From Micromonospora eburnea (GTDB lineage: Bacteria; Actinomycetota; Actinomycetes; Mycobacteriales; Micromonosporaceae), in NCBI RefSeq assembly GCF_900090225.1, contig NZ_FMHY01000002.1, positions 4,402,001 to 4,466,000 on the forward strand: a stretch of DNA of 64,000 nt, written 5' to 3'. The stretch's first letter is position 1; the number at the start of each line of letters is the position of its first letter. The notes below the pieces were generated by a model, which ran no database searches, was not told where the DNA came from, and saw only the letters and a list, made by a program, of their open reading frames with translations. The translations under genes were made by a program, and so were the position numbers. Of the stretch, positions 22,796-55,419 are shown piece after piece.

Positions 22796-22824
22796 TTGAT
22801 ATGTACGTCTGTAAATGCAATACT
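22796..22824 (+). promoter_or_regulatory. Candidate promoter of the LPMO gene
   Basis: TTGATA (22796-22801) and AATACT (22819-22824) are separated by 17 bp, a good vegetative-type promoter in an AT-rich pocket of the 368-bp divergent region. The predicted start point falls inside the CebR-like operator. The rest of the divergent region (22509-22795) shows no gene I recognise and presumably holds the metallopeptidase promoter. Confidence 0.55.
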
Positions 22825-22826
22825 GA

Positions 22827-22840
22827 TGGAAGCGCTCCCA
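22827..22840. promoter_or_regulatory. CebR-like operator before the LPMO gene
   Basis: TGGAAGCGCTCCCA differs at one base from TGGGAGCGCTCCCA, the palindrome bound by the cellobiose repressor CebR/CelR in streptomycetes and Thermobifida. It directly follows the candidate -10 box and lies 36 bp before the LPMO start, an ideal place for repression. No cebR gene is in the window. Confidence 0.8.
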
Positions 22841-22876
22841 CGGCGATCACCAGTAACGAGGAATGGAGGATGCACC

Positions 22877-23557
22877 GTGCGTTCACCGAAGCTCGATCAA
22901 TCTGCCCGGCGATCCCGATCAGCCGTCCGCCAGCCCGCTCGAGCGCTCGTCCTGCTGCTCACCATGCTGGTCGGCATCCTGCCCTGGAGCGGCGTGGCCC
23001 AGGCCCACGGCACCATCGTCAGCCCGCCGACCCGCGCCTACAAGTGCTGGCAGACCTGGGGAAACAACCACATGGACCCGGCCATGCAGCAACAGGACCC
23101 CATGTGCTGGCAGGCGTTCCAGGCCAACGCCGACACCATGTGGAACTGGATGAGCGCGCTGCGGGACGGCCTCGGCGGGCAATTCCAGGCCCGTACCCCC
23201 GACGGGCAGTTGTGCAGCAACGCCCTCTCGAGGAACGACAGCCTGAACCGGCCCGGCGCATGGAAGACGAGCAACGTCAGCCGCAACTTCTCGATCCAAC
23301 TGTACGATCAGGCCAGCCATGGTGCTGACTTCTTCCGGGTCTACGTCAGCAAGAACGGGTTCAACCCGACCACCCAGAGCCTCGGTTGGGGGAACCTCGA
23401 CTTCATCACGCAGACCGGGCGCTACGCGCCGGCACAGAACATCACGTTCAACATTTCGACCTCCGGATACACCGGACACCACATTCTCTTTGTCATCTGG
23501 CAGGCATCGCACCAGGACCAGACCTACATGTGGTGCAGCGACGTGAACTTCGTCTGA
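22877..23557 (+). CDS. AA10 lytic polysaccharide monooxygenase (cellulose/chitin-active)
   Basis: This secreted copper enzyme oxidatively cleaves crystalline polysaccharide. GTG 22877 follows GGAGGA by six bases. The 43-residue signal peptide (twin-Arg-like basic start, LVLLLTMLVGILPWSGVAQA) ends exactly before HGTIVSPPTRAYKCW, giving His1 of the histidine brace. The second brace His is mature residue 105 in DQASHGADFFRVYV, and the axial Phe is the penultimate residue (DVNF-V). Cysteines in CWQTW, MCW, LCSN and MWCSD would form disulfides. The mature catalytic domain is 183 residues with no carbohydrate-binding module. The CebR-like operator suggests cellulose rather than chitin as target. 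Confidence 0.95.
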   Translation: MRSPKLDQSARRSRSAVRQPARALVLLLTMLVGILPWSGVAQAHGTIVSPPTRAYKCWQTWGNNHMDPAMQQQDPMCWQAFQANADTMWNWMSALRDGLGGQFQARTPDGQLCSNALSRNDSLNRPGAWKTSNVSRNFSIQLYDQASHGADFFRVYVSKNGFNPTTQSLGWGNLDFITQTGRYAPAQNITFNISTSGYTGHHILFVIWQASHQDQTYMWCSDVNFV

Positions 23558-27153: not shown

Positions 27154-28170
27154 TCAGTAGGTCACCCGCACCCCCATCTCCCGCCAGGTCTGCCGGCCGA
27201 CGATCCCGTCCACCGCGATCCCCCGCATCCGCTGGTACCAGCGCACCCCGGCCTCGGTCTTGGCCTCGAACCGCCCGGTCACCCGGCCACACCGCCGCTC
27301 GCCGATGAACCGCTGCACGAACGCCACGTCCTCGCCGCTCGTCGCGGCCCGCAGGGTACGCGATCCGGGCTCCCGCCGCGCCGGTTCCGGTGCGGGCGCC
27401 GGTCGGGTGGTCGCCTCGCGCAGCGCGGCGAGCGTCTTCGGGCCGACGACGCCGTCGACGGTGAGCCCCCGCGCCTGCTGGAAGTCGCGTACCCAGGCCT
27501 CCGTCCTGGGGCCGAAGTCGCCGTCCACGGTCAGCTTCGCGCCGAGCCGGTTGGCGAGGGTCTGCAACTCGCGTACGTCGCCGCCCTTACCGCCCCGGCG
27601 CAGGGTCCGGTCGCCGAGTCTGGGCACCGGGGCCTCGGCGATGCCCCAGCCCACGGTGCTGGACTCCAGTGCCCGGTCGTGACTGACGCTGACGTGCAGG
27701 TGCTTGTCGTGCGGGTTGCTGCCGGTGTACCGGGCCGCCGCGAACGTGCGGGTCCGGCTCCAGACCGTCCGGTCGAAGATGACGTACTGGGTGGACGGGT
27801 GGGCGATGCACTTGCGGACGACCAGCATCGGGTCGACACCGTCGATGTCGATGTCGAGGGCGTTGACCGACCGGTTGTCGGCGTCCGGGTTGTGGTCCGA
27901 CCGGGTCGCCTGGTGCGCGGCGTCCCCGATCCAGCCGTCGGATGCCCGGTCCCGGTGCGGCCAGCGCCGGTCGACCTCGTCCCGGAGCGCCTTCAACACC
28001 GGTGCCAGGTGGTAGGCCGCCAGCGCGGCGGACTTCGACCCCGGCCCGTCGGCGGCCTGCTCCTCCTCGTGCCCGAAGAGGTCGTACTCGACCGGCTCGC
28101 CGATCCGGCTCTCCGGGTCGTCGTCCTCGGGAACCCGGTCGAGGTCGGGTTCCACGGCGGGGCTGTTCAT
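27154..28170 (-). CDS. Endolysin-like M15 peptidase with two peptidoglycan-binding repeats
   Basis: The 338-residue protein starts with an acidic tail, then a zinc peptidase domain of the D-alanyl-D-alanine/L-Ala-D-Glu endolysin type (about 45-165): SDHNPD (91-96), ALDIDID (104-110) and HDKHLHVSV (154-162) supply the metal and catalytic residues. Two PG_binding_1 repeats follow (about 188-250 with LTVDGDFGPRTEAWVRDFQQ, and 272-335 with IAVDGIVGRQTWREMG). It should cut peptide cross-links in peptidoglycan. There is no signal peptide, so it needs a holin, cell lysis or another route to reach the wall, as for phage lysins. Its ATG overlaps the previous stop (ATGA). It is the last gene of the operon. 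Confidence 0.88.
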   Translation of the reverse strand: MNSPAVEPDLDRVPEDDDPESRIGEPVEYDLFGHEEEQAADGPGSKSAALAAYHLAPVLKALRDEVDRRWPHRDRASDGWIGDAAHQATRSDHNPDADNRSVNALDIDIDGVDPMLVVRKCIAHPSTQYVIFDRTVWSRTRTFAAARYTGSNPHDKHLHVSVSHDRALESSTVGWGIAEAPVPRLGDRTLRRGGKGGDVRELQTLANRLGAKLTVDGDFGPRTEAWVRDFQQARGLTVDGVVGPKTLAALREATTRPAPAPEPARREPGSRTLRAATSGEDVAFVQRFIGERRCGRVTGRFEAKTEAGVRWYQRMRGIAVDGIVGRQTWREMGVRVTY

Positions 28171-30089
28171 CTCTCCTCCTTCGGCTGGCTGGCGGATTCC
28201 GGCGCGGCGGTGGGAGACGGGACCTCGACGGCGGGCGGGACGGTGGGCATCGCCGCCCGCTCGGCGGCGGCAGCGGCCAGCAAGCCGGAGAACAGCGAGG
28301 CGGCGAGCACCTCCGGCTGCAACGGATCGATGTCCGCCCGGATCGCGGTGACCTGCCAGTAGAACCCGTGCGACGTCCTGGTCCCGTCCACGGTGCGGAC
28401 CCGGAACTCACCGGCGGTGACCCGGGAGGCGGCCAACGGCGACACCGGTTCGTCGCCCTCCAGGATCGGGGTGAGCTGGACCGTCCGGTCCTCCAGCCGG
28501 GTCAGCGCCTCGAAGTAGTCGGGTAGCTCGACCGTGGCGACGCCGTCGACCAGCCGCCCCTCGCCCCGGTAGTAGACCCCCTGCTCGGGCCCCTCCAGCG
28601 CGGCGTGCACGAGCATCCGCCGGTCGGCGGCGGCCGGATCATCGAGGGGGTGGTCGATCAGGAAGGACTTCCCGCCGGAGGCGTAGATCGTGCCGCTCGT
28701 GCCGTTCAGGATGATCTTGTGTGGACCTCGGACCGGCCCGACGTAGACGGCACCGGCCGCGAAGAGGTCCCAGGTGGCGATGCCGCCGCCGCTACCGGGC
28801 GGGATCCAGCCGGGTGCCATCGTTACGCCGAGGTTGCCGACGATCTCCGCGTTGCCGCCGACCCAGGCGCGCTTCTCCACCCGCAACGCGCCCGCGTCCC
28901 CGCCGGTGTTGCCCTCGGAGACGACGCTCACGCCCTCCGGTCCGGCCAGGGTTATTCGCTGCCCCCGCAGGGTCATCCGGCCCGGGGAGTCGACCGTCCG
29001 GTCCCCGCCGCCCAGACGCACGTCGCCGTTGAGTGTGGTGGCGCCGCCCACGACCAGGTCGCCGCTGGCGCCGCTCTCCCGGACCAGGATCAGCCCGCTG
29101 GCGGCCCGGAGCGCCGCCTGGCCGTCGGTGTGCAGGTTGAGCCCGCCCCGCCCGCTGACGCTGGTCGCCCGCAGCTCCCGCACCTGCAGGTCGGCGTACG
29201 GCTTGCTGTGCAGGGCATAGTCCAGGCTCGGCCAGTCGGCGCTGCGGTCGACCAGTTCGAAGCCCCGGCCGGGGCGGAACGAGAACTGCGCGTGCTGCAC
29301 CCCGGGCCCGAAGAAGCCGAGCGCGGCGAGCACCTTGTCGGCCTGCACCGGCGCCCCGTGCAGGCTGCCCATGTGCAGCATGCCGTGGCTGATCCGGAGC
29401 CGGTCCGCCCCGGCCTGGGCGAACGCGATCGCGTCATCCGGGTCGTTGTGGTTGGCGATCCGCAGCACGGTGTTCTCGCCGTCGACGATGGAGTAGCGGA
29501 TGAACGCCTCGTCGCCGCTGGCCCCGACCGGGAACTGGATGCCGGACTGCGGGGTGTCGCCCATGGTGGGCACGATCGCCCCCGCCGGCACCCGCAGCCC
29601 GGCGGCCCGCCGGCCGGTCTCCTCCACCGTCACCACGCCCTGCCGGCGGGCGACCGTGCCCAGCACGATCTGCCGGCCGGGGTCGGCGGGGGCGGTGGTC
29701 GAGACCGTCACCACGCCCCGCTCGGTCCACCGGGTGTCGCCGGCCACGCCGCCCTCGTCACGTCGGTCGGTGAGCTGCTGGAAGTAGCTCAGCACGACCT
29801 GGAACGCGCCATCGCCGGGCAGGCTCACCCGCAGGTCGGACGGAAGCACGATGACCGTGCCGTCGGCGTCGATCGCCACCCCCTCCCGGACGGTGACGTC
29901 GCTGCCGGTGGCGGCCAGTTCCAGCCCGCTGACCACGCCCACCGGTTGCAGCAGGCGGGCGGCGAGATTCTGCCGGGACAGCAGGTAGTCGACCGCCTGG
30001 GCCAGGTCGGCCGCGCGCAGGTACTGGTGGTCGTAGTACCGGGGGCGCGCCATGGGCAGCGGCAGGTTCAGCTTCCAGTTGATCGTCAT
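28167..30089 (-). CDS. Phage-tail-fibre-like protein
   Basis: The 640-residue protein opens with YYDHQYLRAADL and LLQPVGVVSGLEL, then VTVREGVAIDADGTVIVLP, a beta-rich arrangement typical of tail or baseplate-associated proteins. The middle part is low-complexity beta repeats (VSGRGGLNLHTDGQAALRAA, VVGGATTLNGDVRLGGGDRTV) suggesting a trimeric fibre. Near residue 490-570 is a conserved block, SFLIDHPLDDP, LVHAALEGPEQGVYYRGEG and VELPDYFEAL, found in tail-fibre and related adhesion proteins. ATG 30089 is preceded by GGAGATGC. It lies directly before the lysin gene. Function as an adhesive or receptor-binding fibre is inference. Confidence 0.7.
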   Translation of the reverse strand: MTINWKLNLPLPMARPRYYDHQYLRAADLAQAVDYLLSRQNLAARLLQPVGVVSGLELAATGSDVTVREGVAIDADGTVIVLPSDLRVSLPGDGAFQVVLSYFQQLTDRRDEGGVAGDTRWTERGVVTVSTTAPADPGRQIVLGTVARRQGVVTVEETGRRAAGLRVPAGAIVPTMGDTPQSGIQFPVGASGDEAFIRYSIVDGENTVLRIANHNDPDDAIAFAQAGADRLRISHGMLHMGSLHGAPVQADKVLAALGFFGPGVQHAQFSFRPGRGFELVDRSADWPSLDYALHSKPYADLQVRELRATSVSGRGGLNLHTDGQAALRAASGLILVRESGASGDLVVGGATTLNGDVRLGGGDRTVDSPGRMTLRGQRITLAGPEGVSVVSEGNTGGDAGALRVEKRAWVGGNAEIVGNLGVTMAPGWIPPGSGGGIATWDLFAAGAVYVGPVRGPHKIILNGTSGTIYASGGKSFLIDHPLDDPAAADRRMLVHAALEGPEQGVYYRGEGRLVDGVATVELPDYFEALTRLEDRTVQLTPILEGDEPVSPLAASRVTAGEFRVRTVDGTRTSHGFYWQVTAIRADIDPLQPEVLAASLFSGLLAAAAAERAAMPTVPPAVEVPSPTAAPESASQPKEER

Positions 30090-30213: not shown

Positions 30214-32043
30214 TCATCGGGGCTGTACGGCGTCGTAACGCAGGCCGCTGGAGACATCGCCGCCGGTGGCGTGCCGGGACCGGCCCAGCCACAGGTGCAC
30301 CGAACCGTCCGACCAGCGGGCGAGCTGCCAGCGGCGTACCACGCGCAGGCCGGCCCGGCCGACCTCCTCCTCGGGGATGGCGAGTTCCACCAGGCCGGTG
30401 CCGTCCGGTCCGGGGCGCCAGTCGAGCACCTGGCTGTGCCCGGTCGCCGGCACCGGCGGGCCCTGCTCGGAGGCGACCTGGATCGGGACCCGGCGCAGCC
30501 GTACCCGGGTGGGGTCACCGTCCCCGGCGGTGGGCACCAGCGGCACCCAGTTCTCCGGCACGGTGCTGGCCAGCGTGTACGCCAGCTCCGGCACGTCCGC
30601 CCCGGTGGGCGCCGGACGTGGCGGTACGGCCACCCGGGCGACCTGGGCGGTCCGGTCGATCGGCCGGCCGGTGGCCCCGGTGACGGTACGTTCGATCGCC
30701 CAGACCAGGTTCGCCATCTCGTCCCGGCCGAACCGGACCTCCTCCACCGGGTCGGAGTCGACGGTGGTCGCCGCGGTCGGGGGCAACACCAGCACCTCAG
30801 ACGGTTCGCCCGCCACCGGGTTCCAGGGCCGGAACAGCGCCCAGCCCCGGGTGTCGGGCGCGGCCGGCACCAGTGTCTGGGTGCCGAAGGTGTCGGTGAC
30901 GATCAGCGACCGGATCCGGGTGGCCGAGCCGACCGGCAGTTCCAGCGGCACGACGAAGTGGTCGTTGGCGTAGACCAGGCCGAATTCCAGGAGGAACATC
31001 CGGCCCAGGTCGGCGGCGCCCGCCCCGACCTGGGCCAGGTTGATCCGCGAGTCCTCCAGCTCCCAGAACCGGGTCGACGGCATGCCGGCATAGGTGACCG
31101 GCATCGGCAGCGTCACCCGGACCAGGTCGGGGCGGTCCGAGGGCGGGGTCTGGAGGGTCTCGTCGGGCCGGTGGTCGAAGTGGTACCAGTCCAGTCGGTC
31201 GCCGTCGTACTCCCGGGCGGCGAGCACCAGTTCCCCGTCCGGTCCGGCGGCGCCGACGGCGAACTCGTACTCCAGCCGTTCCCGCTGCCAGGCGGAGCCC
31301 TCGGTCCCCGCCACGCTGACCAGCGGATAGAAGTCGCTCGGCGGCCAGGGCGGGGTCGCCGGCCGGGGGTCGACCCCCGGGGAGATCACCGCCGGCAGTT
31401 GCAGCAGGTAGCCGCCGGGCGGGCCGGCGGGCCGCTCGGACACGCCGAGCCAGCCCAGCCAACCGGCGATCGCGGTCCGGACCGCGCCGGCCAGGGCCTC
31501 CGGCACAACCTCGGCGAACGTCCCGTCGGCGATCGCCCGCAGGAGTCGGTCGCCGTGCGGCACCCGGCCCGCCATCAGCCGCAGGTAGCCCGCGGTCTCG
31601 GGGTCGAGCCGGGACGGCGCGTCGGCGGGCACGGCCGGAACCGGGTAGCTCGCGGCCACCACCGGAGCCAGCGATCCGGCGCCGACCTCGGCCAGCAGGC
31701 GCAGGAACTGCTGCCCGGTCTCCACCGAGAACCGCAGGTCGTCGGCGGTGCGGGCGCTCTCCCGCTCGACGTACGCCTCCAGCGGCACCTGGCCGGGCAG
31801 CGGAATGGCGTCTCCGGTCCGCCCGCCGGCCCGGTACCGGGTGAGTGGAAGCACCTCGGCCTGTACCCGGGCCGCCACCGGCGAGCCCGCGTCCTCACCG
31901 AGGAACTCGCCGAGCTGCCACTGCCGGCCCAGCAGCCACAGTGGATCCGCGGTACGCGCCTGCAGCGCCGGGCTCAGGTCCGCGCGCCGGGTCCGCGGCT
32001 CCAGCCTGGTCCAGCTGGTCACCGACGGCGTGCCGTCCGTCAT
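30214..32043 (-). CDS. Unrecognised 609-residue operon protein
   Basis: I do not recognise a named family. The N-terminal 60 residues contain a striking conserved-looking block, RTADPLWLLGRQWQLGEFLGEDAGSP. Further on, LVYANDHFVVPLELPVGSATRIRSLIVTDTFG and the C-terminal RVVRRWQLARWSDGSVHLWLGRS look like conserved cores. The protein is acidic, rich in beta-strand-forming sequence and without signal peptide or membrane helix. Its ATG overlaps the stop of the 1547-residue gene by 4 nt, suggesting the two products are made in fixed ratio and may bind each other. An upstream open frame in the same phase is not homologous to anything visible and was not included. Confidence 0.8.
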   Translation of the reverse strand: MTDGTPSVTSWTRLEPRTRRADLSPALQARTADPLWLLGRQWQLGEFLGEDAGSPVAARVQAEVLPLTRYRAGGRTGDAIPLPGQVPLEAYVERESARTADDLRFSVETGQQFLRLLAEVGAGSLAPVVAASYPVPAVPADAPSRLDPETAGYLRLMAGRVPHGDRLLRAIADGTFAEVVPEALAGAVRTAIAGWLGWLGVSERPAGPPGGYLLQLPAVISPGVDPRPATPPWPPSDFYPLVSVAGTEGSAWQRERLEYEFAVGAAGPDGELVLAAREYDGDRLDWYHFDHRPDETLQTPPSDRPDLVRVTLPMPVTYAGMPSTRFWELEDSRINLAQVGAGAADLGRMFLLEFGLVYANDHFVVPLELPVGSATRIRSLIVTDTFGTQTLVPAAPDTRGWALFRPWNPVAGEPSEVLVLPPTAATTVDSDPVEEVRFGRDEMANLVWAIERTVTGATGRPIDRTAQVARVAVPPRPAPTGADVPELAYTLASTVPENWVPLVPTAGDGDPTRVRLRRVPIQVASEQGPPVPATGHSQVLDWRPGPDGTGLVELAIPEEEVGRAGLRVVRRWQLARWSDGSVHLWLGRSRHATGGDVSSGLRYDAVQPR

Positions 32044-35000
32044 CTCTGCTCCTCGGGAGTCGGCGTGGTGCGGCCGGCGGTGGGTAGGGTCGCCGCGTCG
32101 GGGGCGAAGTCGGTCGTGGCGCCCGGCTGGGCGACGTTGACCGGGAGATAGAGCGCCGGAAGGAACTGCCCGCCGGCACCGAGCGAGTCGACGTCGGTGA
32201 CCCGGGCGATCGCCAGGTCCAGGGCCTCTTCGAGGGTCTGGACCAGCGCCGCCGGCTGCCAGGTCGGGGCACCGTCGGAGCTGACCCCGAGCAGCACCGC
32301 CTGCGGGGCGGCGGCGGCCGGCGCGTCGTACTCGAAGGTGAGGCCGGTCAGCGCGGTGGCGGCTGGCACCACCTCGGTCCACTCGTCGACCAGCAGGCCG
32401 TACACGGGCCGGTGCGGGTCGAGGTCGCCGAGGGTGGCCAGGACCAGCGAGATCGGCCGGGTGTCCGGCCGGGGCGCGGTCTCGCCGACCCACCGGTCGC
32501 CGTCCTGGTACGGCAGTTGCGCCACCTGGACCCGGGCCGGGACGCGCACCGCGCCACCGGCGTCGAGCACCTCGGCGAAGGCCAGCACCTCCTGGAGCCG
32601 GCCGACCGCCGGGCGGACCCGTCCGTACCGGGTGAGCCACCGGCGTACCGCGTGCGGCGTACCGCCCTGGAGGTCGGCGCTGGCGGCGAGTGCGGCGGCC
32701 AGGGTGACCGGATCAGGCGCCCGGCTGAGCGAGAGCACCGGCGCATCGGCGCCGAGCAGCGCCCGGATCCGGGCGACCTGGAGGTCGCGCCGCGCCTGCG
32801 GGGGTGCGGTCGGGTCGTCGAAGTCGGTCGCCGGCACGCAGCCGCAAACGCCGGGCGGGCAGGGGGTACGGCCACGGGGCCCGGCCACCACCGCGCAGTG
32901 CGCGGCGATCCGGCGGGTCAGCTCGTCCCCGGCGTACCGGACCGCCTCGGCGACGACCGCCGCCGACGCCGGCCCCGGCGGTGGGGGCTCGACCCCGACC
33001 ACGCCGAACCCGGCGGCGGTGCGAAGCAGGCGCCGCACCGCCGCGTCGTCGTCCGCCGGAGCCGACGGCGGGTCGAGTTCCCGCAGTGCGGTGGCGGTGG
33101 CCCGGGCGAGCTGCCACAGCTCGTCGGCCGCGTGCCGGGTCTCGGTGTCGAACTGCGGCGGGACGTCCGGTTCCGCGCCGAGGTCGGCGGCGAGCAGTTG
33201 GCGGCTGCGGCCGAACAGGTCCCGCAGGGCCGCGACGGCGGTCAGGAACTCGCTCAGGCTCACCGATCGGCTCGGTGAGCCACCGGTCGGCTCGTAGTTC
33301 AGCTCCAGCCGCCACTGCGGGGTCACCTGTCGCGGGGCGAACCGGGTCCAGGCGACCAGTTCGATCCGCCGGTCCAGATCGGTGCCGGCCGGCGCGCCGG
33401 GATGCGGCGGGGCGGCGACGTGGTCCACCGCCGCCATGCCCAGGTAGTCCAGGGTCGCCGCGACGTACGGCGTCACCTCGGCGCCGTCCGGCGCGTGCCA
33501 ACGCATCCGCCAGTAGACCCGGTTGGCGGACGGCAGCAGCGCCGCGACCAGCGCGTCGACCGCCGCCCCGATGATCCGGGGCTGCTCGGACCGGCCGGCC
33601 GGCCAGTCCACCCGTCGTGCGCCGAACCGGTCGTCGAGGTGGAACAGCAGGGCGACCCGGTGGGTCACCGTCACCCCGCCACCGTCCGGCGTACGGCTGA
33701 AGTGCAGCTCGGGCGGGTGGCCGGCGGCACCGGCAGCGGCGTCCAGCGCCGCGGCGGCCCGGTTGAGATCGCCGGCCGCGAGCTGGTGCACGCCCTCGGC
33801 CAGCAGCGCGTCGCCGACCGCGTCGACGTCGTCGGCCAGCCCGGCCAGCAGGTCGCCGAGGGCTTCTGAGGCGGCACCGGGCAGGGTGGCCAGCTTCGCG
33901 TCGAGCGCGCCGGCCCGGTGCAGCCGGTGCAGTTCGAGCCCGTCGGTGACGGCGGTGGACTCGGTGGTCGAGGCGATCGTGATCGACCGCCCGTCCGGCG
34001 ACGGGTCGACCCGGTGCGCCCGGACCGGCGCCAGGTCCCGGAACAACGGGACGTACTGGTCGAGGGCGCCCCGGGGGTGGTCGTGCAGGCCACGCTCGAA
34101 GCGGTAGCCGAGCAGCGCGCCGAGGGGCTGGCCGTCGCGGAGGCCGGCGAGGATCTGCTCGGCCGTCCGGACCCGGCGGGAGGAGAGGTCCACCGCGACC
34201 GGGTTGTCGGCTCCCCCGCCGTGTGACCGCCAGGCGCTACGCAGTACCGCGGCGGTGACCGCCTGTGGCTGCGACGGGGCGTGTACGTGTCCGGCGTCGG
34301 CGGGGGCCGCCAGCAGTTTCGGCCCGGCCTCGCTGGCCGGCACGTGCGCCGGGCGGTCGACCAGCACCGGCGGCGGCGCCGGAACCAGGTCGGTGACCCA
34401 GCCGTACGCGCCGACGTGCAGCCCGGCCGGCAGGTCGGCGGGGCGGCTGGCGGCCAGCCGGTCCAGCCGGATCGTGGCCAGCGAGGTGATCCAGGCGTCC
34501 AGCCGGTGGGCGGTCAGGCCGAGTGTGCCCGCGACGTACCGTTCCAGGTCGGCCGGGTCGAGGGGCTTCGGTGGCGCCTGCGGCTCGGTGGGGTCGGGCG
34601 GCGGCGGGACGAGCGCGTCGGCCAGCCGGGTCAGCGCGGACCGGAATGCGGTCAGTTCGGCGGTGGCCTGCCGGTGCCGGTCGTCGTCGGGCGCGCTGCC
34701 TGCGAGGTAGTCACCCACGTCCAGCCCGCCGCTGCCGGGCACGGTGATCGCCAACCGCCGGGCCAGGGTGGCGGTACGCTCGCGGGCCCGGACGTCGACC
34801 AGCTCGGGTTCGGGGATCTCCGCGGCGCCGGGCAGCCCGGCCAGCGTGGCGAGCCGGCCGGCGGCGGCCGAATGCTCGGCGATCAGGGCGGCCCGCAGGA
34901 GCCGGTAGAGCAGCGGCACCGGCCGGTCCGGTGCCGACCGGTCCGGGATCCGGTCGCCGCGCAGCGGCACCGCGGCGAGCGCGTCGAGGTAGGCCCGCAC

Positions 35001-36683
35001 CCGGGCCGGGTCCACGGCCTCCGGCCCGTCCAGCAGCGGGGTGCCGAGCGCGAAGGACTTCCTGGCGAACACCGCGAGCGCGAGCCGTGGGTCGGTCTCG
35101 CCGGCCAGTCCGAGCGCGGACAGCAGGGCCCGGCCGGGCTCCACCACCTGCTCCTGCCAGCTCGCGTCGAGGTCGAGCCGGAGGAACCGCCACAGCCAGC
35201 TCACGTACTCGTTGCCGAGGACGCTGCGGGCCCGGACTTCGACGGCCCGGGCGTCGGCGGCCAGGATCTCCAGCAGGGTCTGCTCCGGATCGGCGAGGCC
35301 CGGACGGATCCGGGGCGCCGGTCCGGCGAGCCAGGCCCGCCGCCAGAGGTTCTCCAGCACGGTGACCGCCCGCCGCTCCCCCGGGTCGGCCGTCTGCCAG
35401 CCGCGCAGGGCCGCGACCGGCAGCAGCCCGTACGGCTGCGAGCCGATCCGCAGGGTGGGCAGCGGCCCCTCGGGGTGGACGTGCGCGACGAAGTGCTCGC
35501 GGATCTGCTCCTGCTCGGCCGGGGTGGCGACCGGGAGCAGGTGGCGCAGGGTGTTGCCGAGGCCGGGGTGCCACAGCACCTGGCGGACCAACCGCTCCAC
35601 CGGGCGTTCGTCGAGGCCGGCGTGGGCGGCGCGGGCGAGCGCGGTCGGGGCGCCCGACCGGGGCGTCCGGCGGCGGGCGCTGCTCAGGTCGTCGTCGAGG
35701 TCGTCGGACAGGAGCGGCACCGCGAGCGCCCGGCTGACGAGTGCCGCCGCGCTCTCGTTCGCCGGGTCGACCCCGCCGGGCACCTCGTCGGCGGCGGTGA
35801 CCGGGGCGACCGTGGCGTGGCCGGGCACGGTCACCGTCTCGGTGTGGTTGGTCGGGGTGCCGGGCGGCAGGAAACCCAACCCGTCGGTGGCGGCGTGCGC
35901 CTCCAGCAGCCGGTGCAGGGCCCACGCGGCGTCGTCCGGGCCGGTCGCGTCGTCCACCCCGAAGACCAGCAGGCGCTCCACCGGCCGGGGTCGCCCGCCG
36001 GCATCGGTGGGCACCTCGACCGGGAACGCCATCCCGGCGGACACCGCCGCCTCGTAGTCGACCAGCCAGCGCATCCCGGCGTCGACCGGGGGCAGCCCCG
36101 GCGGGACGTCGGCCGGTACGACGCTCTCCGGCTCCCCGGGCAGCACCGGGGTCAGGCTGACCGCGGGGTCCCGGGTGACCGGCTGCGACACGCCGGTGAA
36201 GAGGACACCGTCGACGGTCCGGCCGACCGCGTACCAGCGGCTGGGCAGCAGCCGGGCCCGGGCCGGCTCGGTCCACGGCGCCGGCCGGGACAGCGGGTCC
36301 AGGGGGTCACCGTCGGCGTCCGGCTCCATCACCCGGGCGATCCAGCCGGCCCGGGCCGCGCCGAACAGGCGGACCAGCTCCGTCCAGGCCGGATCGGTCG
36401 CGGTCGGGCCGCCGCCGGCCAGGTCCGCCCAGTACGCCCGGCCGGCCGCCTCCTCCGCCTCGGTCAGTCCCGGCTCGTGGCTGTCCACGTGGATCTGGTC
36501 CGGGAAGACCCGGATCCGCAGTGTGGCACCGCTGAACCTGCTCTCCAGCCGGACCGGTAGCAACGCCACCGGGTACCAGGTGGAGAGGCTCCACGGCGTC
36601 TCGGTGAACGCGCTCGACAGGCGTACGGGTTCGGTGGCCCGCTCTGGGCCGACGGTACGGCGCGCGGTGCGGGTGCTGGTCAT
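32040..36683 (-). CDS. Unrecognised 1547-residue operon protein
   Basis: I cannot assign a named family. Motifs that look conserved: PVALLPVRLESRF and IRVFPDQIHVDSHEPGL near the start, LRIGSQPYGLLPV near residue 410, a cysteine cluster (CPPGVCGCVP, about 1260-1300, possible metal site), and near the C terminus VYGLLVDEWTEVVP followed by LTFEYDAPAAAAPQAVLLGV. The chain alternates helical Ala/Leu/Arg-rich segments and beta-rich parts, with no signal peptide or membrane helix. ATG 36683 overlaps the stop of the upstream 1671-residue gene by 4 nt. Coupling on both sides argues for a stoichiometric complex with its neighbours. Confidence 0.8.
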   Translation of the reverse strand: MTSTRTARRTVGPERATEPVRLSSAFTETPWSLSTWYPVALLPVRLESRFSGATLRIRVFPDQIHVDSHEPGLTEAEEAAGRAYWADLAGGGPTATDPAWTELVRLFGAARAGWIARVMEPDADGDPLDPLSRPAPWTEPARARLLPSRWYAVGRTVDGVLFTGVSQPVTRDPAVSLTPVLPGEPESVVPADVPPGLPPVDAGMRWLVDYEAAVSAGMAFPVEVPTDAGGRPRPVERLLVFGVDDATGPDDAAWALHRLLEAHAATDGLGFLPPGTPTNHTETVTVPGHATVAPVTAADEVPGGVDPANESAAALVSRALAVPLLSDDLDDDLSSARRRTPRSGAPTALARAAHAGLDERPVERLVRQVLWHPGLGNTLRHLLPVATPAEQEQIREHFVAHVHPEGPLPTLRIGSQPYGLLPVAALRGWQTADPGERRAVTVLENLWRRAWLAGPAPRIRPGLADPEQTLLEILAADARAVEVRARSVLGNEYVSWLWRFLRLDLDASWQEQVVEPGRALLSALGLAGETDPRLALAVFARKSFALGTPLLDGPEAVDPARVRAYLDALAAVPLRGDRIPDRSAPDRPVPLLYRLLRAALIAEHSAAAGRLATLAGLPGAAEIPEPELVDVRARERTATLARRLAITVPGSGGLDVGDYLAGSAPDDDRHRQATAELTAFRSALTRLADALVPPPPDPTEPQAPPKPLDPADLERYVAGTLGLTAHRLDAWITSLATIRLDRLAASRPADLPAGLHVGAYGWVTDLVPAPPPVLVDRPAHVPASEAGPKLLAAPADAGHVHAPSQPQAVTAAVLRSAWRSHGGGADNPVAVDLSSRRVRTAEQILAGLRDGQPLGALLGYRFERGLHDHPRGALDQYVPLFRDLAPVRAHRVDPSPDGRSITIASTTESTAVTDGLELHRLHRAGALDAKLATLPGAASEALGDLLAGLADDVDAVGDALLAEGVHQLAAGDLNRAAAALDAAAGAAGHPPELHFSRTPDGGGVTVTHRVALLFHLDDRFGARRVDWPAGRSEQPRIIGAAVDALVAALLPSANRVYWRMRWHAPDGAEVTPYVAATLDYLGMAAVDHVAAPPHPGAPAGTDLDRRIELVAWTRFAPRQVTPQWRLELNYEPTGGSPSRSVSLSEFLTAVAALRDLFGRSRQLLAADLGAEPDVPPQFDTETRHAADELWQLARATATALRELDPPSAPADDDAAVRRLLRTAAGFGVVGVEPPPPGPASAAVVAEAVRYAGDELTRRIAAHCAVVAGPRGRTPCPPGVCGCVPATDFDDPTAPPQARRDLQVARIRALLGADAPVLSLSRAPDPVTLAAALAASADLQGGTPHAVRRWLTRYGRVRPAVGRLQEVLAFAEVLDAGGAVRVPARVQVAQLPYQDGDRWVGETAPRPDTRPISLVLATLGDLDPHRPVYGLLVDEWTEVVPAATALTGLTFEYDAPAAAAPQAVLLGVSSDGAPTWQPAALVQTLEEALDLAIARVTDVDSLGAGGQFLPALYLPVNVAQPGATTDFAPDAATLPTAGRTTPTPEEQR

Positions 36684-39600
36684 GACGGGTTCTCCGGGGT
36701 CGGTAGCAGGTCGCTGGCGTGCCGGGCGAGCAGGACGGGTTTCTGGAGCACCACCCGGGCCATGTCGGCGGCGGTACGGCCGAACACCGCGCCGTCGATC
36801 GCGTCGGTGGGCAGTCCGGGTGCCGCCGGAGAAAGGAACACCGCGCCGTCCGGCAGGTGACCCCAGTGCAGGTCGTCCCAGCGTTCGAGCGGGTCCGGCG
36901 GAACGGGTGGCGGCCACTCCTCCGGTGCCAGGTCCAGGCCGAACCGGGCCGCGGTGGGCTGTTCCCGGAGCAGGAAGAAGTAGCCGGGGTCGCCGCCGGG
37001 GTCGGGTTCGCCGCGCGCCTCGTCGGCGGTGAACGGGAAACCGAACAGCAGCAGGTCCGGGGAGAGCCAGGCGTTGAAGATCGGTGGCAGGTCCACCCCG
37101 ACCGGTTCCCGCCGCGTCCCGACCCAGGCGGCCCGGCGCATGGTGACGACCGTCGAGGGGAAGCGGCGCAGCACCTCGCCCCGGATGACCAGCACCAGCG
37201 ACTGTTCCCCGGGGGCGCCGACGGCGGTCAGGTGGGTGCCGAGCGGACCGTTGCGCCAGGCGTCGTCGGTCAGTGGCGGAATGTCGGTGAGCGGGTCACC
37301 GGCCGACCGCGCGCCCCGGACGTCCCAGAACTGCCGGAACCAGGTCTGCCGGGGGTCGGCCGGGAAGCCGCGCCAGAGCATCTCCCGGCTCATCTCGTGG
37401 TTGAGTCCGACCAGGAACGCCTCGATGAAGCGGGGGTTGGCGGCGAGCGCGGTCATCGTCTCCGGCGCCACCGCCGGCAGGTTCGGCGCGATGTGCTCCT
37501 GCGACAGCCCACGCAGCAGTTCGTACGCGGGCACGTCGAAGGTGATTCCGGCGAGCAGGGGACGCAGCGGGTCACCGCTGTCCGGCAGAACGTCCACCAG
37601 GGACCGGCCGTCGACGCTCACCTCGGCCAGCACCTCGTCGGGGACGGCGGTCTCCGGGCGGATCAGGGACCGGGCCGCGTACGCGGCGGCGTCGAGCGGG
37701 ATCCGCTCCGGCTCCTCGTCGCGGGCGAGGGCCTGGACCGGGACCAGCCAGCCCTGGTGGGCGTCGGCGGCGAGGATGAACTGGTCGCCCATGGTGGCCC
37801 GGTCGGCGACCAGGTCGGGGCGGAGGTCGCCGAGGAACAGGGTGCATCCGCGCCCGGTGCCCGGGTCGGCCAGCCCGGGGGTGAGCTGCGGTGGGCTCCA
37901 CCGTACCGGCACGCCGGTGGCGTCCAGGTCGAAGCCGACCTGGGTGGCCAGGGTGCCGGCCGCGGCGCGGTACGACACCACGACGTCGGGCTGGCGGGTG
38001 CCGGTCAGGTCCGCGACGGCGGCACCGGCGGCGGGGGCGGCGGCCACCGTCGCCTCGTTGTCGACCGCCCGCAGGACGGTCCAGGCGCCGTCGGCGACCC
38101 GACCCCGGCGGTTGATGCCGCGCCCGGTGCCGTACCGGGCCAGCGGCTGGCCGGCGATGTCCCGCCCGGTGGCGAACAGAAACAGGTCCGGCGTGAGGTC
38201 GCCGGTCATGTCCACCACCTGGACCCCGACCGACCGGACGGTCTGGAAGGCGTACGGGGCGGGCAGCGAGTCGCTCCAGCCCCGGGTGACCCGGCCGGAC
38301 GGGTCCAGCCCCCAGCCGACCCGGTAGTAGACCCGGCTGGTGCCGGCCGGGTCGTTGACGGCGTACGCGACGACGAGTTCGGCGACCTTGTCGCCGTCCA
38401 GGTCGACGACCGTGGCGGCGACCGGGCCGGCGTACCGGCTGATCGGGTCGGGCAGTGCGTACGGTCCGGTCCAGGCGGTCGCGGCGCCGTCCGGGGTGAG
38501 CCCGGTGCCGACCCAGTAGGCCAGGCGCCGGCTGTTGGCGTCCGGTCCGGGCAGCACCGCGACCGCGAACAGCCTGGGCGGGACGGTGGCAGCCGGCGTG
38601 CCGAGCGTCACCGCGACACCCTGCGCCGGCGTGCCGGTACGCGGTCCGGCCGCGGCCGGGGTGAGCACGTTCTCCCGCAGCGCGCCGTGCTCGTCGAGAT
38701 GGTGCACCGACTGGGTACGGACCACACTGTCCGTCCCGTCGTCCACCTGGTACGCCACCAGCAGCGACGACAGCAGCCCGACCCGGGGCGGATATGGGTT
38801 CTCCGCCGGCGGCGGGGCCGGGGCCGGGGCGTCGACCGGGCCGGCGCCGCGCGGGTCGGCGGGCGGGCCGAAGTCGAGCCAGCCGTGGCCCCGGTCCCCC
38901 CACTGGTAGGCGGCCATCCCACCGGCCGCGGTGCGGACGAACAACTCGCCGTCCCGCTCGTTCCCGAGCACCGGGCCGGGCCGGTGCGGGGCGATGCCGC
39001 TGTCCGGCCGGCCGATACCTTCGGTCCAGAGCCAGTTAATGAGCCCCGACTGGCGGTCGTCGGGGACGCTGGTGCGCCCGTACACCTGCAACTCCGACGG
39101 CTGGCCGTCGGGATGGGCGAGCACCAGGATCTCCGGCTCCTCGCCGATGCCACTGGTGGTCGTGCGTTGGGCCAGCGAGACGATCCGCATTTCCCGCAGC
39201 GGCGGACCCGTGAACCGGACCCGGCCGTGGGCACGAAGGTTGCCGTCGCTGAGCCGCACGGTGCCCAGCTGCCCGTCCGGCGTCAGGTACGCCAGCCGCT
39301 CGTCCCCGTAGGGGTCCTGGTGGAGGCTGGCCGGTGAGCCCCAGACCACCGGGCTGGAGACCCGGATGCTCCAGGTTCCGTGGTAGCCGAAGAGCCGGCC
39401 GGTGGAGGTGGCGACGTAGACGCCGCCCGGCACCGGACGCGGGGAACCCCACAGCCGCTCGCCGGGAGCGAGGTCGGGGCGGCCGAGCGGGGTCCAGGTC
39501 CGGGCGACCGGGTCGAAGTGGTGCAGCTGCCCGTCCGCGCCGAGCTGGAAGACGTTCCTGCCGCTGGCGGTGGGCCGGCTCGCCGTACCGCCGGGTGGGC

Positions 39601-41695
39601 CGCCGCAGTCGGTCCAGATCCAGCGGTCGCCGTCCCACCGGCGTTCGAAGAGCCGACGGGCCCGGGTGCCGACGTAGATCCGGTCGGGGGGAGCCACGGC
39701 GCCGGAGGTGGTCACCGTGGTGCCGGGTGGGGTGCCGTGGTCCCGCCACACCCAGGTGCCGTCGAGCCGACGGTGTTCGAAGAGCCGGCCGTCGTGGGTG
39801 GCGACGAAGTAGCGGTCCTCGCCGAGCGGGTCGCCGCCGTTGCTGGCGATGGTGGTGTCCGTGCCGCCGGCCAGGGCTGCCCGGGCAGCGGCCATCCCGG
39901 TCCGGCCGCCGCCGCGCCACCAGGGATCCGCCGCGGCCTGGCGGACCAGTTCCGGGGTGACCGTCTCGATCCCCTCGCCGAGCACGTCGTCGATGAGGGT
40001 GCCGCCGGTGGGGATCCTGGCCGGCGGTACCGCGGTCGCTCCGCGGGCGAGCCGGGACAGGGCACTCTCCCGGCCGGCGGCGGCGAGCGTAGACCGACCG
40101 GCCTCGGGGCGGGCCCGCCGGGCCAACGGGCCCCGGGGCCGAACCAGCCGGCGGTACGGGGCGCTGGTGGCCGCCCGCGCGCCCTCGTTGCCGACGAGCA
40201 GGTCGTCCAGCGACTCGGCGGTGGCGGCGACCGGGCCGGCCGCCAGCGAGGGTGGCGGCGCGGCGACCAGATCGTGCACCGGCCGGGTCAACGTCACCAG
40301 TTGGTCGTTGCCCAGCGCGCCTCCCGGCGTCCCGGGGTCGACCCGCTTGGCGTACAGGGCCGTCGCGGTGTCCCGGGCGGCCCGCCCGCGCCGCAGCTGC
40401 TCGTTCACCTCCCGCAGCTGGGCCGCGCGCTCCCAGGCGGCGGTGGCCAGTTCCTCCTGGTACTTCTGCACCACCTGGGTACCGAGCCCGGCCGCGGCCC
40501 GGTACCGGGGGTCCAGGTTCAGCCCGGCCAGCCAGACCGGCTCGCCCCCGGGGGGCGGCACCCGCCCCTCCTGGAGGTGGATCTCGCCGTACAACGGCGG
40601 GGTGAACCAGTCCTCGACGTGTTCCAGCAGCTCGGCCATGCGGGCCTGCCAGGGCTCGGCGACCTCGGGCGCCCAGGCGTCGGGGGTCATCGAGGGCGAG
40701 GCGAGCGCTCCCTCGAAGGCGAGCACCGACCGGCCCGGCACCCCGGCCGGGGTGATCTCCGGCAGCCCGCCGCCGGCGGCGGAGACGTCCACCTGCCGGC
40801 GGCCGACGTCGGCCGGGAGCGCCCGGGCCCGCAGCCGCCGGACCAGCGACTCGAAGTCGCCGTCCGGCCCGGTCCGGAACGTCCAGTGGTGGTAGACCGG
40901 CAGCAGCACCGGGTCCTGCGGGGCCGTCTCCGGGCCGCCCCAGGCCGGACCGACCTCGGCGGCGTCGGCTGGCAGCCCCAGACCGGCCCGCACCCCGGCG
41001 TCGAAGGCCGGTACGACCGCGGCCAGGTACTCGGTCCCCGGCGCGAGCCGGCGCGGGCAGATCAGCCGGGACAGGGTCCGCTCGGGATGATCGACGAGGG
41101 TGCTCGCCACGTCCTCCTCCGCCGTGGCGAGCAGCACCTGGGCGTGCGCCCAGGCCCACGACTCGGTCAGGTCGGGCAGTTCCTCGACGGTGGTCGCCAG
41201 TCGGGGCAGCGCCCCGCCGATCGGCTTCTCCAGCCGCCCGGTCGGGCCGACCGGGACCACGACCAGCACCAGCCAGGGTTCCAGCCGGCCGAGCGGGTCG
41301 GGTCGGGCCGGGGTGTGGAGCCAGGGCAGGTCGGGACGGTCGAACTCGACCGCGGCGAAGGCGGTCACGTCGACGTTCTCCGCCCCGGCCGCCGGGTAGC
41401 TGCGGATGACCTGCCGGGCGTCCAGGGCGGTGACGTCTCCGGGGCCGTACAGGTAGGCGGTGGTGTCGCCGTCGATGCGGACCGGCTCCGCCGATCCGTC
41501 GGAGTAGCTGCCCTCGACGCTGACCGAGAGCGTCACCCCGGCCCGGGCGGGTCGCCGCCCACCGGTCCCGGCCGGTCCGCCGGCTGGCGGTGCCGTCCCG
41601 ACGAGCGCGGGCGCCGCCCCGGCCTGCGGTACCGGGTCCGAGATCAACCGGGCGACGCCGTCGCGCACCCAGGGAAGGAATCGAAGACCACCCAT
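36680..41695 (-). CDS. 1671-residue protein with lectin-like and FG-GAP-like repeats
   Basis: Three parts are visible. Residues ~1-600 form an unrecognised N-terminal region with EPWLVLVVVP and ESWAWAHAQV. Residues ~625-775 contain W-rich repeats (YFVATHDGRLFEHRRLDGTW, IYVGTRARRLFERRWDGDRW, VYVATSTGRLFGYHGTW) like a tachylectin/PLL-type beta-propeller lectin. Residues ~1090-1330 hold FG-GAP/VCBS-like repeats (VVDLDGDKVAELVVAY, VVDMTGDLTPDLFLFA, VADLTGTRQPDVVVSY). The C-terminal ~290 residues include FIEAFLVGLNHEMSREMLWRGFP, FRQFWDV and LVLVIRGEVLRRFP, which look highly conserved. No signal peptide. The repeats suggest binding of glycans or partner proteins. Confidence 0.8.
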   Translation of the reverse strand: MGGLRFLPWVRDGVARLISDPVPQAGAAPALVGTAPPAGGPAGTGGRRPARAGVTLSVSVEGSYSDGSAEPVRIDGDTTAYLYGPGDVTALDARQVIRSYPAAGAENVDVTAFAAVEFDRPDLPWLHTPARPDPLGRLEPWLVLVVVPVGPTGRLEKPIGGALPRLATTVEELPDLTESWAWAHAQVLLATAEEDVASTLVDHPERTLSRLICPRRLAPGTEYLAAVVPAFDAGVRAGLGLPADAAEVGPAWGGPETAPQDPVLLPVYHHWTFRTGPDGDFESLVRRLRARALPADVGRRQVDVSAAGGGLPEITPAGVPGRSVLAFEGALASPSMTPDAWAPEVAEPWQARMAELLEHVEDWFTPPLYGEIHLQEGRVPPPGGEPVWLAGLNLDPRYRAAAGLGTQVVQKYQEELATAAWERAAQLREVNEQLRRGRAARDTATALYAKRVDPGTPGGALGNDQLVTLTRPVHDLVAAPPPSLAAGPVAATAESLDDLLVGNEGARAATSAPYRRLVRPRGPLARRARPEAGRSTLAAAGRESALSRLARGATAVPPARIPTGGTLIDDVLGEGIETVTPELVRQAAADPWWRGGGRTGMAAARAALAGGTDTTIASNGGDPLGEDRYFVATHDGRLFEHRRLDGTWVWRDHGTPPGTTVTTSGAVAPPDRIYVGTRARRLFERRWDGDRWIWTDCGGPPGGTASRPTASGRNVFQLGADGQLHHFDPVARTWTPLGRPDLAPGERLWGSPRPVPGGVYVATSTGRLFGYHGTWSIRVSSPVVWGSPASLHQDPYGDERLAYLTPDGQLGTVRLSDGNLRAHGRVRFTGPPLREMRIVSLAQRTTTSGIGEEPEILVLAHPDGQPSELQVYGRTSVPDDRQSGLINWLWTEGIGRPDSGIAPHRPGPVLGNERDGELFVRTAAGGMAAYQWGDRGHGWLDFGPPADPRGAGPVDAPAPAPPPAENPYPPRVGLLSSLLVAYQVDDGTDSVVRTQSVHHLDEHGALRENVLTPAAAGPRTGTPAQGVAVTLGTPAATVPPRLFAVAVLPGPDANSRRLAYWVGTGLTPDGAATAWTGPYALPDPISRYAGPVAATVVDLDGDKVAELVVAYAVNDPAGTSRVYYRVGWGLDPSGRVTRGWSDSLPAPYAFQTVRSVGVQVVDMTGDLTPDLFLFATGRDIAGQPLARYGTGRGINRRGRVADGAWTVLRAVDNEATVAAAPAAGAAVADLTGTRQPDVVVSYRAAAGTLATQVGFDLDATGVPVRWSPPQLTPGLADPGTGRGCTLFLGDLRPDLVADRATMGDQFILAADAHQGWLVPVQALARDEEPERIPLDAAAYAARSLIRPETAVPDEVLAEVSVDGRSLVDVLPDSGDPLRPLLAGITFDVPAYELLRGLSQEHIAPNLPAVAPETMTALAANPRFIEAFLVGLNHEMSREMLWRGFPADPRQTWFRQFWDVRGARSAGDPLTDIPPLTDDAWRNGPLGTHLTAVGAPGEQSLVLVIRGEVLRRFPSTVVTMRRAAWVGTRREPVGVDLPPIFNAWLSPDLLLFGFPFTADEARGEPDPGGDPGYFFLLREQPTAARFGLDLAPEEWPPPVPPDPLERWDDLHWGHLPDGAVFLSPAAPGLPTDAIDGAVFGRTAADMARVVLQKPVLLARHASDLLPTPENPS

Positions 41696-41696
41696 G

Positions 41697-44600
41697 TCAA
41701 GACACCTTCCCGGTGGGGGCGAGCGCGATGGTGGGGTACGGGACGGTGACGGTGCGCCGGCGGACCAGCCGGGCCCGGTCGCCACCGGGAGCGACGGCGG
41801 CGGCCTGGGTCGCGGTGGGCAGCGCCTCGACCACCGGCCGGTCGAGGGCGCGGGCGGCGATGCGGCGTGCCCGCCGCGGTACGCCCCGGCCGGGCACCCA
41901 GGACGGTCCCGCGTCGTCCACGCCGAGCCCGGGGCCGGCGAACCGGGTCGCCCCGGTGGTCCGGGTCCGGGCGTTCGCCGCCGGCCCGGTGGCGGCGAAG
42001 AGGGTGAGCAGCCGGTCGGGCTCCGCGGCGGCCAGTGCGTTCCCCGGCCGGGCCGGCATCGGCCGGCCACCGTCCTCGGGGTCGTCGATGATCACCCGGT
42101 CGTACGCCTCGTCTCCGGAGAGCCCGACGAAGACGGTGTTCGCCGGGTCGGGCAGCGCGGTGCCCTCCGGCAGGCGCACCGTCGTTCCGGCGGGCAGCCG
42201 TTCGAAGCCCGGGGTGGTCAGCTGCTCCTCGGGGGTCAGGTCGCGGAACTGGCCGGGCGCGAAGTCGTCCATGATCGCCTCGCCCAGCCCGCCCGGCACC
42301 CCGTCCTCGGCTCCGGCCCGAACCCCCGTGATGGTGAACCGGTTCGGCCCCACGATCCGGGAGGTGCCGATCCGCTCCAGGTCGACGTCGAGCGGAAGCA
42401 CGTTCTGCCGTACGCCGAGGGTGGCGCCCGGGGTGAGCAGCAGGACGTCGCCCGCGGCCTGGACCGGTCGCAGCGTGACCGGTTCGCCGCCGGTACCGGT
42501 CGCGGTGACCTCCCAGGCCCGGGGGTGTCGCACCGCGATCGCGATCAGCCCGGAGGCGTCGAGGTAGCTCGGTTCCCGGTCCTCGGCCTGGCGGCCGTGG
42601 CTCCAGTCGAAGCTCTTCGACACCTCCAGGAACAGGAGTTTGAACCGCAGCCTGCCCCAGGCCCGCCACAGCCCGGGTCCGCTGATGCCGATCACGGCGG
42701 TGAGTCCCAGCAGTTCTCTGCTGCCGATCTTGACGGTCAGAACGATGCCGAGTTCCGCGGTGAACCAGAGCGGATCGAACTGGATCAGCACGTCCAGCCA
42801 GGTCCGGCCGCCGATGACCAGCCCGACCGCCTGGAGGTTCACCTCCACCAGGCCACCGAACTGGACGGTGTTGGCGGTCACCGCCAGGTACGTCTCGGCC
42901 CGGATGCCGTTCCCGATCTGGCCGAGCGCGATCGCGCACCGCCTGAGCTTGGGGAACCACGCCGGGTACGGGCTGCGGGGATGGAACCCGCCGATCGAGA
43001 TCGCGAAGTGCTTGTGCCTCCCCCAGCCGGCGCGCAGGGCCATCTGCCCGGTGACCGGCAGGCCGAAGAGGTTCGAGTCGTACAGACCCGCGTCGACGGC
43101 GACCTCCTGGCGGTCGACGTCGTAGACGCCGGCGGCGTTCAGTTGGAGCTTGCCGACCGTTCCGAGCGTGACGACCAGCTTGCCGAGCAGCAGAATCCGG
43201 ATCGGCTCGGGAAACTCGACCAGCACGGCCAGGTCCGCCACCACGCAGCCGGCGAGGAAGTCGAGCCGGACCATGGCGCCGACGACCGTGCCGGTGGGGT
43301 CGACCGGAAAGAGCCGGCTGAGCGCGGCGACGATCTCCGGCGCCCGGCCGACCGGGTCCTCGGGGAACAACAGGTGGTCGAGGCTTCCCGCGCGGGCGGC
43401 CTTGCCCACCTCCTCCGGGTTGCTGCGCCGGTTGTGTCCCACCAGCAGACCGAGACCGGTGAGCCTGATGCCCCAGAACAGCATCAGGCCGGGGTTCCAG
43501 CGGAGACTGCCGACGGCGAGCATGGAGAAGGTCTCGCCACCGTCGGCCTCGGTGATCCGGGTGCCGTCCGGGTTACGGGTGTCGAGCATCGCGACGAGCT
43601 GCGCCCGGAACCCGCGCGAACCCCCGCTGCCGGCCAGGAAGTCGACGCCGAGTTCCAGCGCGCCGGCGTAGCTCCCGCGCTGCTTGTCGCGGAAGAGGTA
43701 GCCGCCGCCGGTCAGGATGCCGTTGTCGAGGCGCAGGCTCACCCCGTCGGGCGGCTGGAACCGCGGCGTCAGGTCGGCCGGGCCGAGGTTGCCGACCCGG
43801 GTCCCGTCCGCGGTGGTCGGGAGCGCGGACCCGAGGGCCAGGTCGAGGCGTACGCCGAGGTTCGACAGATAGCCGCTCAGCGGGCCGATCCGGGCCCGGA
43901 GGAAGGTGGTCAGCACCAGGCTGACCCGGCCGGCCTCGCTGTCGCCGGAGAGCGCGACCCGCAGCCCGTCGAGCTGGATCACCCCCAGGGTCAGGTGCAG
44001 CGGGTACTCGGCGGTCAACGCGGCGGCGCCGGCCAGGTGCGGACCGGTCCGCAGCGACCAGCCGACGCCGAGGTCGAAGCCGATCCGCAGCCCGTCCGAG
44101 GGCAGCAGCTTGCGGATCAGTCCGTCCCCGTCGCCGGGCTTGACGACCAGCTCGGCCCGGCCGGCGCGGAGCAGCAACTCCACGTCGTCCCGCCCGGTCC
44201 CGAGCGCCGCCCGGGCGTTCAGCACCAACTGCCCGATCGCCAGATGGGTGCCCTGGGGCGCGCCGAAGACCCAGCCGGCCTCGTCCGGTGCGGCGATCCG
44301 GGCGACCTCGGCGCTGAACCGTACCTCCGGCTCCGGACCGGCGACGGTCACCCCCGCCGAGTTGATCGCGAACAGCGGGCCCGTCGCGTGCACCTCGGTG
44401 GCGACGTTCCAGGAACCCACCGCACCGGTCCGGTTCACCTGGCCGGTCGGTGCCAGGATCACGGTGAGCCGGCCGTCCCAGGAGGCCAGGGCGAGGTTGA
44501 ATCCGGCGGTGAACCGGGGGTCCGAGCCGCCGTCGAGGGCACCGGTGGGCTTACCCGGCCCGGAGAACCGGACCCGGAGCAGTCCGTCGGCGAGGCGTCG

Positions 44601-45341: not shown

Positions 45342-45501
45342 GCCCACGTCTCCTCTTCCGTCCACGTCGCGGTCCGTCCGGGACCGCCTCCCCGTCGCGT
45401 CCACCGGTCACCGGCGCCCCGCCGGGCGCCCCCACCGAACGGAGCGGCACCATCGCCCCGGCCGGCGGTGCCTTGCCGGTTGCGGTCCGGAACCCGCCCG
45501 G

Positions 45502-51888: not shown

Positions 51889-51964
51889 CCTGGTGCCCTT
51901 CCGGAACATGCTCCTGTGGGACGGCTCCGGCCGTCCGCTCTCGACGCAGACCAGGGCACCAGGT

Positions 51965-51997
51965 CGACGTAGAGAAGTTGTGGAGAGGATGTGGAGA
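51965..51997 (-). promoter_or_regulatory. Three 11-bp direct repeats, SARP-type operator
   Basis: Read on the minus strand there are three adjacent 11-mers: TCTCCACATCC, TCTCCACAACT and TCTCTACGTCG. SARP proteins bind heptamer direct repeats spaced by 11 bp, so both spacing and position (between a SARP gene and the next gene, 77 bp before its start) fit. An inverted copy of the motif (TGTGGAG) lies just upstream at the 52003-52009 side. A clear -10 box eight bases after the last repeat is not visible. Confidence 0.6.
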
Positions 51998-52015
51998 CCG
52001 GACTCCACAGCGCGG

Positions 52016-55294: not shown

Positions 55295-55419
55295 ACCATC
55301 ACCACATCGACGGTCCCGACATGTCCGGTGCCGAGTATGGCAGCGATCGGGCCGCACCGCGCACCCGCCGTCCATCCGGTCACGCGCGCGGGCGCAGGCG
55401 TGGTCCGGTCACCTTGGCA

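Follow-up and report, generated by a model that had tools for sequence, protein, structure and literature searches.

The window analyzed here is the whole 64,000-nt stretch of the Micromonospora eburnea contig NZ_FMHY01000002.1 (positions 4,402,001 to 4,466,000), and all positions below refer to it. Its minus strand harbored an operon of four giant core proteins, namely DUF6603, P0003, P0001 and P0002, with an enzyme gene at a variable position (hereafter the slot) on the 5' side of DUF6603 and two accessory genes downstream of P0002:

45502-49998, minus strand: slot gene, PhoD-like metallophosphoesterase with GDQIYADD, DDHE and GGDIH motifs (start inferred)
41697-45341, minus strand: DUF6603 protein (PF20248), core protein 1 (start inferred)
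36680-41695, minus strand: P0003, 1671 aa, core protein 2, ATGA overlap with P0001
32040-36683, minus strand: P0001, 1547 aa, ATG start, core protein 3, without curated family
36465-36500, minus strand: P0001 motif DQIHVDSHEPGL, residues 62-73
32832-32861, minus strand: P0001 CPPGVCGCVP, clade-specific cysteine stretch
32364-32393, minus strand: P0001 motif LVDEWTEVVP, residues 1431-1440
32040-32043, minus strand: 4-nt ATGA overlap between the P0001 stop and the P0002 start
30214-32043, minus strand: P0002, 609 aa, ATG start, core protein 4, without curated family
31903-31947, minus strand: P0002 motif DPLWLLGRQWQLGEF, residues 33-47, near-invariant, interface candidate
28167-30089, minus strand: accessory gene, 640 aa, beta-helix/fibre-like
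27154-28170, minus strand: accessory gene, M15-peptidase-like N-terminus (by eye) and PG_binding_1

On the minus strand, P0001 and P0002 each had a complete open reading frame, and the plus-strand translation of the same stretch was broken by stops. The two large reading frames and their 4-nt overlap (ATGA, 32040-32043) were real, although the interval of the original prediction (32040-36683) covered P0001 and left most of P0002 outside. The conserved-looking blocks that it had pointed out (DPLWLLGRQWQLGEF, DQIHVDSHEPGL and LVDEWTEVVP) were all present and were retained in relatives, with conservation far above chance. Residues D33, W36, R40, Q41, W42, Q43 and E46 of P0002 were invariant among 65 relatives, and the two P0001 blocks read PD.ih.d.Hep.LT and l.DEW.E.vP in an alignment of 81 sequences. 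When the P0002 start was taken as the one nearest to the P0001 stop, the junction distance was -4 in 11/70 cases, -1 in 5/70 and between -20 and +30 nt in 50/70. Equimolar production, which had been deduced from the overlap, was thus unsupported, the overlap being only occasional and no measure of stoichiometry. All four cysteines of the P0001 cluster (C1263, C1275, C1280 and C1282) occurred in the 8 Micromonospora/Actinomadura sequences (8/8), and none of the four in the other P0001 relatives. Given this restriction to one clade, the suggested metal binding was not supported as a property of the system, while the cluster possibly forms a metal site of the Micromonospora/Actinomadura clade.

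The DUF6603 profile matched the window ORF 41697-45404 with 308.9 bits against a cut-off of 27 (E 8e-92); P0001 and P0002 themselves displayed no PF20248 match. PQQ-like and FG-GAP-like repeat inserts were found in P0003, and the slot gene (mechanical ORF) matched PG_binding_1 weakly around residue 1000, all below the Pfam cut-off. None of the window P0001, P0002 and P0003 had a strongly hydrophobic N-terminus; that of DUF6603 contained a moderately hydrophobic stretch (KD12 2.07). The downstream 640-aa protein had an N-terminal RPRYYDHQYLRAADL segment and a beta-helix-like middle, giving it a fibre-like look, and its C-terminal part matched two PHROGs of unknown function. Its homologues lay directly downstream of P0002 in a few actinomycete loci, and its gene overlapped the 27154-28170 gene by ATGA. 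Upstream of the operon, and likewise on the minus strand, lay a FAD-binding monooxygenase-type gene and a BTAD/AAA regulator (50155-55375); the window also contained an LPMO_10 family lytic polysaccharide mono-oxygenase (22796-23557).

Searches in Pfam, NCBIfam, PHROGs and PADLOC returned nothing usable for P0001 or P0002; an assignment of P0001 to NNH6 (E 0.008, below cut-off) was discarded. Sequence-profile searches of the PDB gave no convincing relative for the P0001 and P0002 families, and no match for P0003 and DUF6603. AlphaFold2 models were obtained for P0002 (pLDDT 79.4, pTM 0.78) and for residues 351-1547 of P0001 (pLDDT 82.1, pTM 0.54). Used as larger models rather than single domains in a fold search of the PDB, they reached best Foldseek E values of 0.26 and 0.90, respectively, and a best VIA Z of 4.1 in both cases; choline-kinase fold rows for P0001 had Z <4 and were rejected. 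A known sub-fold may therefore lie within P0001 or P0002. The DPLWLLGRQWQLGEF motif of P0002 had a pLDDT of about 40-48 in the lone-chain model.

Profile searches placed neither P0001 nor P0002 in a characterised family, and their earlier description as uncharacterised held, with no curated family, PDB sequence relative or convincing fold match for either protein. At the level of sequence, the four core families had no characterised relative in any library tried, and the system matched no machine tested. Neither DUF6603, PF20248 nor the system was found in the literature searched; as subscription papers and preprints lay outside this search, a prior description may exist elsewhere.

In a profile-guided scan of a species-level genome collection, relatives of P0002 were encoded in at least 397 stretches. 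Only the 80 best were retained for analysis, so that the synteny figures lean to closer relatives; the loci from plasmids and haloarchaea were obtained by a different search. The order DUF6603 > P0003 > P0001 > P0002 was invariant wherever the contig permitted, across at least 10 bacterial phyla and haloarchaea. With profiles of the four families, the plain four-gene string was obtained in 55 loci, the remaining ones being mostly cut by contig ends or having a family split across several frames. P0001 lay directly upstream of P0002 in 96 of the 97 P0002 loci. DUF6603 was found in 44 of the 47 P0002-bearing genomes searched (19/19 and 25/28), and in the three genomes without it the P0002 locus sat on a short or end-truncated contig. 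The earlier view of the two proteins as the core of an unknown system was hence correct but incomplete: its core has four genes, not two, and the variable hydrolase slot, the most telling feature, had been missed. The single exception among the 97 loci, a lone P0002 without P0001, lay near IS5 transposases on an S. anthocyanicus plasmid (L022) and is likely a remnant. Nine loci (Nitrospira, e.g., L056, 3839-4648) had an extra coiled-coil ORF between P0003 and P0001.

Fusions were found at two places in the gene string. A finished actinomycete genome (L029) encoded P0001 and P0002 in a single open frame, which, together with their invariant adjacency, supported the predicted partnership; they were also in one frame in L044, a MAG in which a stop may have been lost. 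The DUF6603 ORF of Polyangium (L120) encoded, upstream of DUF6603, an alpha/beta hydrolase domain (PF00561, E 1e-9). A run of N accounted for an apparent DUF6603-P0003 fusion in L039, which was rejected as an artefact. Between P0001 and P0002, pairwise identities were strongly correlated (r 0.96; r 0.84 for pairs below 45% identity), as is equally expected under simple co-inheritance. Haloarchaeal P0002 carried an LTD (lamin-tail) insert, and one haloarchaeal P0001 had decapeptide repeats inserted; a separate lamin-tail lead belonged to other haloarchaeal proteins and was dropped.

The slot was occupied by different genes in different loci. In a census of the upstream DNA of 41 regions and of the earlier plasmid loci, a PhoD-like phosphoesterase was the commonest occupant (26 loci; a script recognised 24 of them but missed L128 and L131, where the mechanical DUF6603 frames were too long and the genes upstream align to the PhoD-like family). 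The slot gene was a phospholipase D (PLD) in 3 loci, a peptidase M64 in 2, a haloarchaeal family without Pfam match in 4, and a DUF2515 protein, an Rv2525c-like glycoside hydrolase and a beta-lactamase-family protein in 1 locus each. In 3 loci it was tentatively assigned as NAL1/trypsin-like (protease-like), the best Pfam match being below cut-off. Four slot genes had no Pfam match (the immediate neighbour in L134, and those of L139, L141 and L143), and a few loci had no recognisable gene beside DUF6603 (e.g., L018, L019, L023 and L025). On the P0002 tree, at least 3 changes for PhoD and at least 2 for PLD fell on starred (well-supported) branches, which indicates that the slot enzyme was exchanged between lineages. 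Among the PhoD-like members, the GD motif was found in 26/26 and GD[VI]H in 24/26, and the window gene displayed all three metal-site motifs; catalytic motifs appear intact in most of them. The PF09423 score of the window slot gene was 21.9 bits (E 1e-4) against a cut-off of 27, and that of L123 was 29.1 bits.

We propose, with about even confidence, that DUF6603, P0003, P0001 and P0002 would assemble into one complex, a chassis that carries an exchangeable hydrolase and has P0001 and P0002 as its last two subunits. The hydrolase would be the product of the slot gene, a PhoD-like phosphoesterase in M. eburnea, and would be held by DUF6603, as suggested by the fusion of an alpha/beta hydrolase to DUF6603 in Polyangium. 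P0001 would bind P0002, and a likely contact is the N-terminal motif of the latter, which is conserved almost without exception but unfolded when P0002 is modelled alone. The case for assembly is a genomic one, since none of the core proteins is related to a characterised protein. That the particle works outside the producing cell is a guess, to which we would give somewhat less than an even chance; it comes from the peptidoglycan-binding, lamin-tail and FG-GAP/PQQ-type modules and from enzyme types that suit envelope or extracellular targets. Release would require lysis or an unknown route, since the window core proteins have no clear signal peptide.

P0002 hosts included members of Actinomycetota, Acidobacteriota, Nitrospirota, Verrucomicrobiota, Chloroflexota, Bacteroidota, Bacillota, Pseudomonadota, Myxococcota and Goldiibacteriota, and plasmid searches added haloarchaea and Gemmatimonadota; the system was thus carried by plasmids and chromosomes, in bacteria and archaea. 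Many hosts were free-living bacteria of soil, water and sludge. The distribution was patchy, P0002 being found in 7 of the 296 sampled Actinomycetota genomes. Such hosts, the dominance of PhoD-like enzymes in the slot and the peptidoglycan-binding and lamin-tail modules are consistent with extracellular scavenging or digestion, in which a scaffolded hydrolase, rather than a weapon, would be held at or near the cell surface to release nutrients (phosphate bound in teichoic acid, nucleic acid or phospholipid). We consider this unlikely, as the patchiness and the plasmids are equally or better explained by an accessory weapon or defence and the window core proteins have no clear secretion signals. 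Two or three DUF6603 genes per genome were observed in G329, G296, G308, G314 and G328, so that several cassettes or types may coexist in a genome. The four-gene cassette was also observed in a GenBank entry labelled "Bacteriophage sp." (L020, MT835531, 76% GC); its phage origin was rejected, other ORFs looking chromosomal by eye (BTAD-type regulator, LysR-type, ComEC-like), and it is probably a mislabelled bacterial contig.

Mobility, patchiness, interchangeable effectors and the lack of clear signal peptides would also suit an intracellular defence or conflict module, in which the four proteins would detect some trigger and turn the hydrolase loose within the cell. This reading is rather improbable too, because PADLOC models matched none of the five proteins (0 families), the core has no NTPase or known sensor domain, and the associated modules are of extracellular type. 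A degenerate or unusual phage-tail derivative, related to contractile injection or type VI secretion, was brought to mind by weak T6SS_Vgr and PHROG tail-type matches of the downstream 28167-30089 product. It is very unlikely in view of the scanned window genes, which gave no sheath, tube or baseplate match, of the viral contigs, which held no relatives, and of P0002, which had no match in a viral fold search. That the genes are merely co-transcribed without physical association, as could be argued from an association read in gene order alone and from an overlap that is not conserved, is scarcely credible against an order invariant across phyla and domains and the fusions.

The proposed chassis with its exchangeable hydrolase resembles several known systems in part. 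DUF6603 (PF20248) marks nearly every locus, one of the four core proteins matching it, but this family has no known function, is uninformative on P0001 and P0002 and occurs with other partners as well. The commonest slot enzyme shares metallophosphoesterase motifs with PhoD-like phosphatases (PF09423), whereas the window enzyme matches this family weakly, has no hydrophobic export signal and accompanies an operon of four giant proteins. Tc toxin complexes (TcA-TcB-TcC) likewise combine several giant proteins without classical signals and an exchangeable enzyme, an analogy of working only: no TcA, TcB or TcC domain was found by Pfam in P0001, P0002, P0003 or the DUF6603 protein, and neither the gene order nor the domains are alike. 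Extracellular contractile injection systems are, again by analogy of working only, multi-gene systems of bacteria and archaea with possibly exchangeable cargo, but no sheath, tube or baseplate was found among the scanned window genes, nor in the core proteins by PHROGs. Polymorphic toxin systems share the constant chassis and variable enzyme; here, however, the variability lies in a separate gene upstream rather than in a C-terminal domain, and no immunity gene was recognised in a non-systematic look.

DUF6603 with other partners was found in three sibling clusters. In L113 (G204, of the same genus as the window), its neighbours were a metallo-beta-lactamase-like gene, a distant P0003-like protein and an unrelated protein of 1271 aa, and L114 and L115 are relatives of this cluster. 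Of the three, L114 had a clear link to P0003 (hhalign 96%), and L113 and L115 a weak one. These clusters suggest at least two classes of DUF6603 systems.

More tentatively than for the complex itself, we consider that the four giant proteins may represent a new class of delivery or display machine common to bacteria and archaea and unrelated to known secretion and toxin systems, a carrier with an interchangeable hydrolase cargo bound by DUF6603. A conserved multi-gene system of about 5,000 residues with swappable enzymes would be a sizeable gap in the maps of microbial interaction and nutrient acquisition, and the gene-order rule and the slot provide a ready means to find further members and to test cargo binding.
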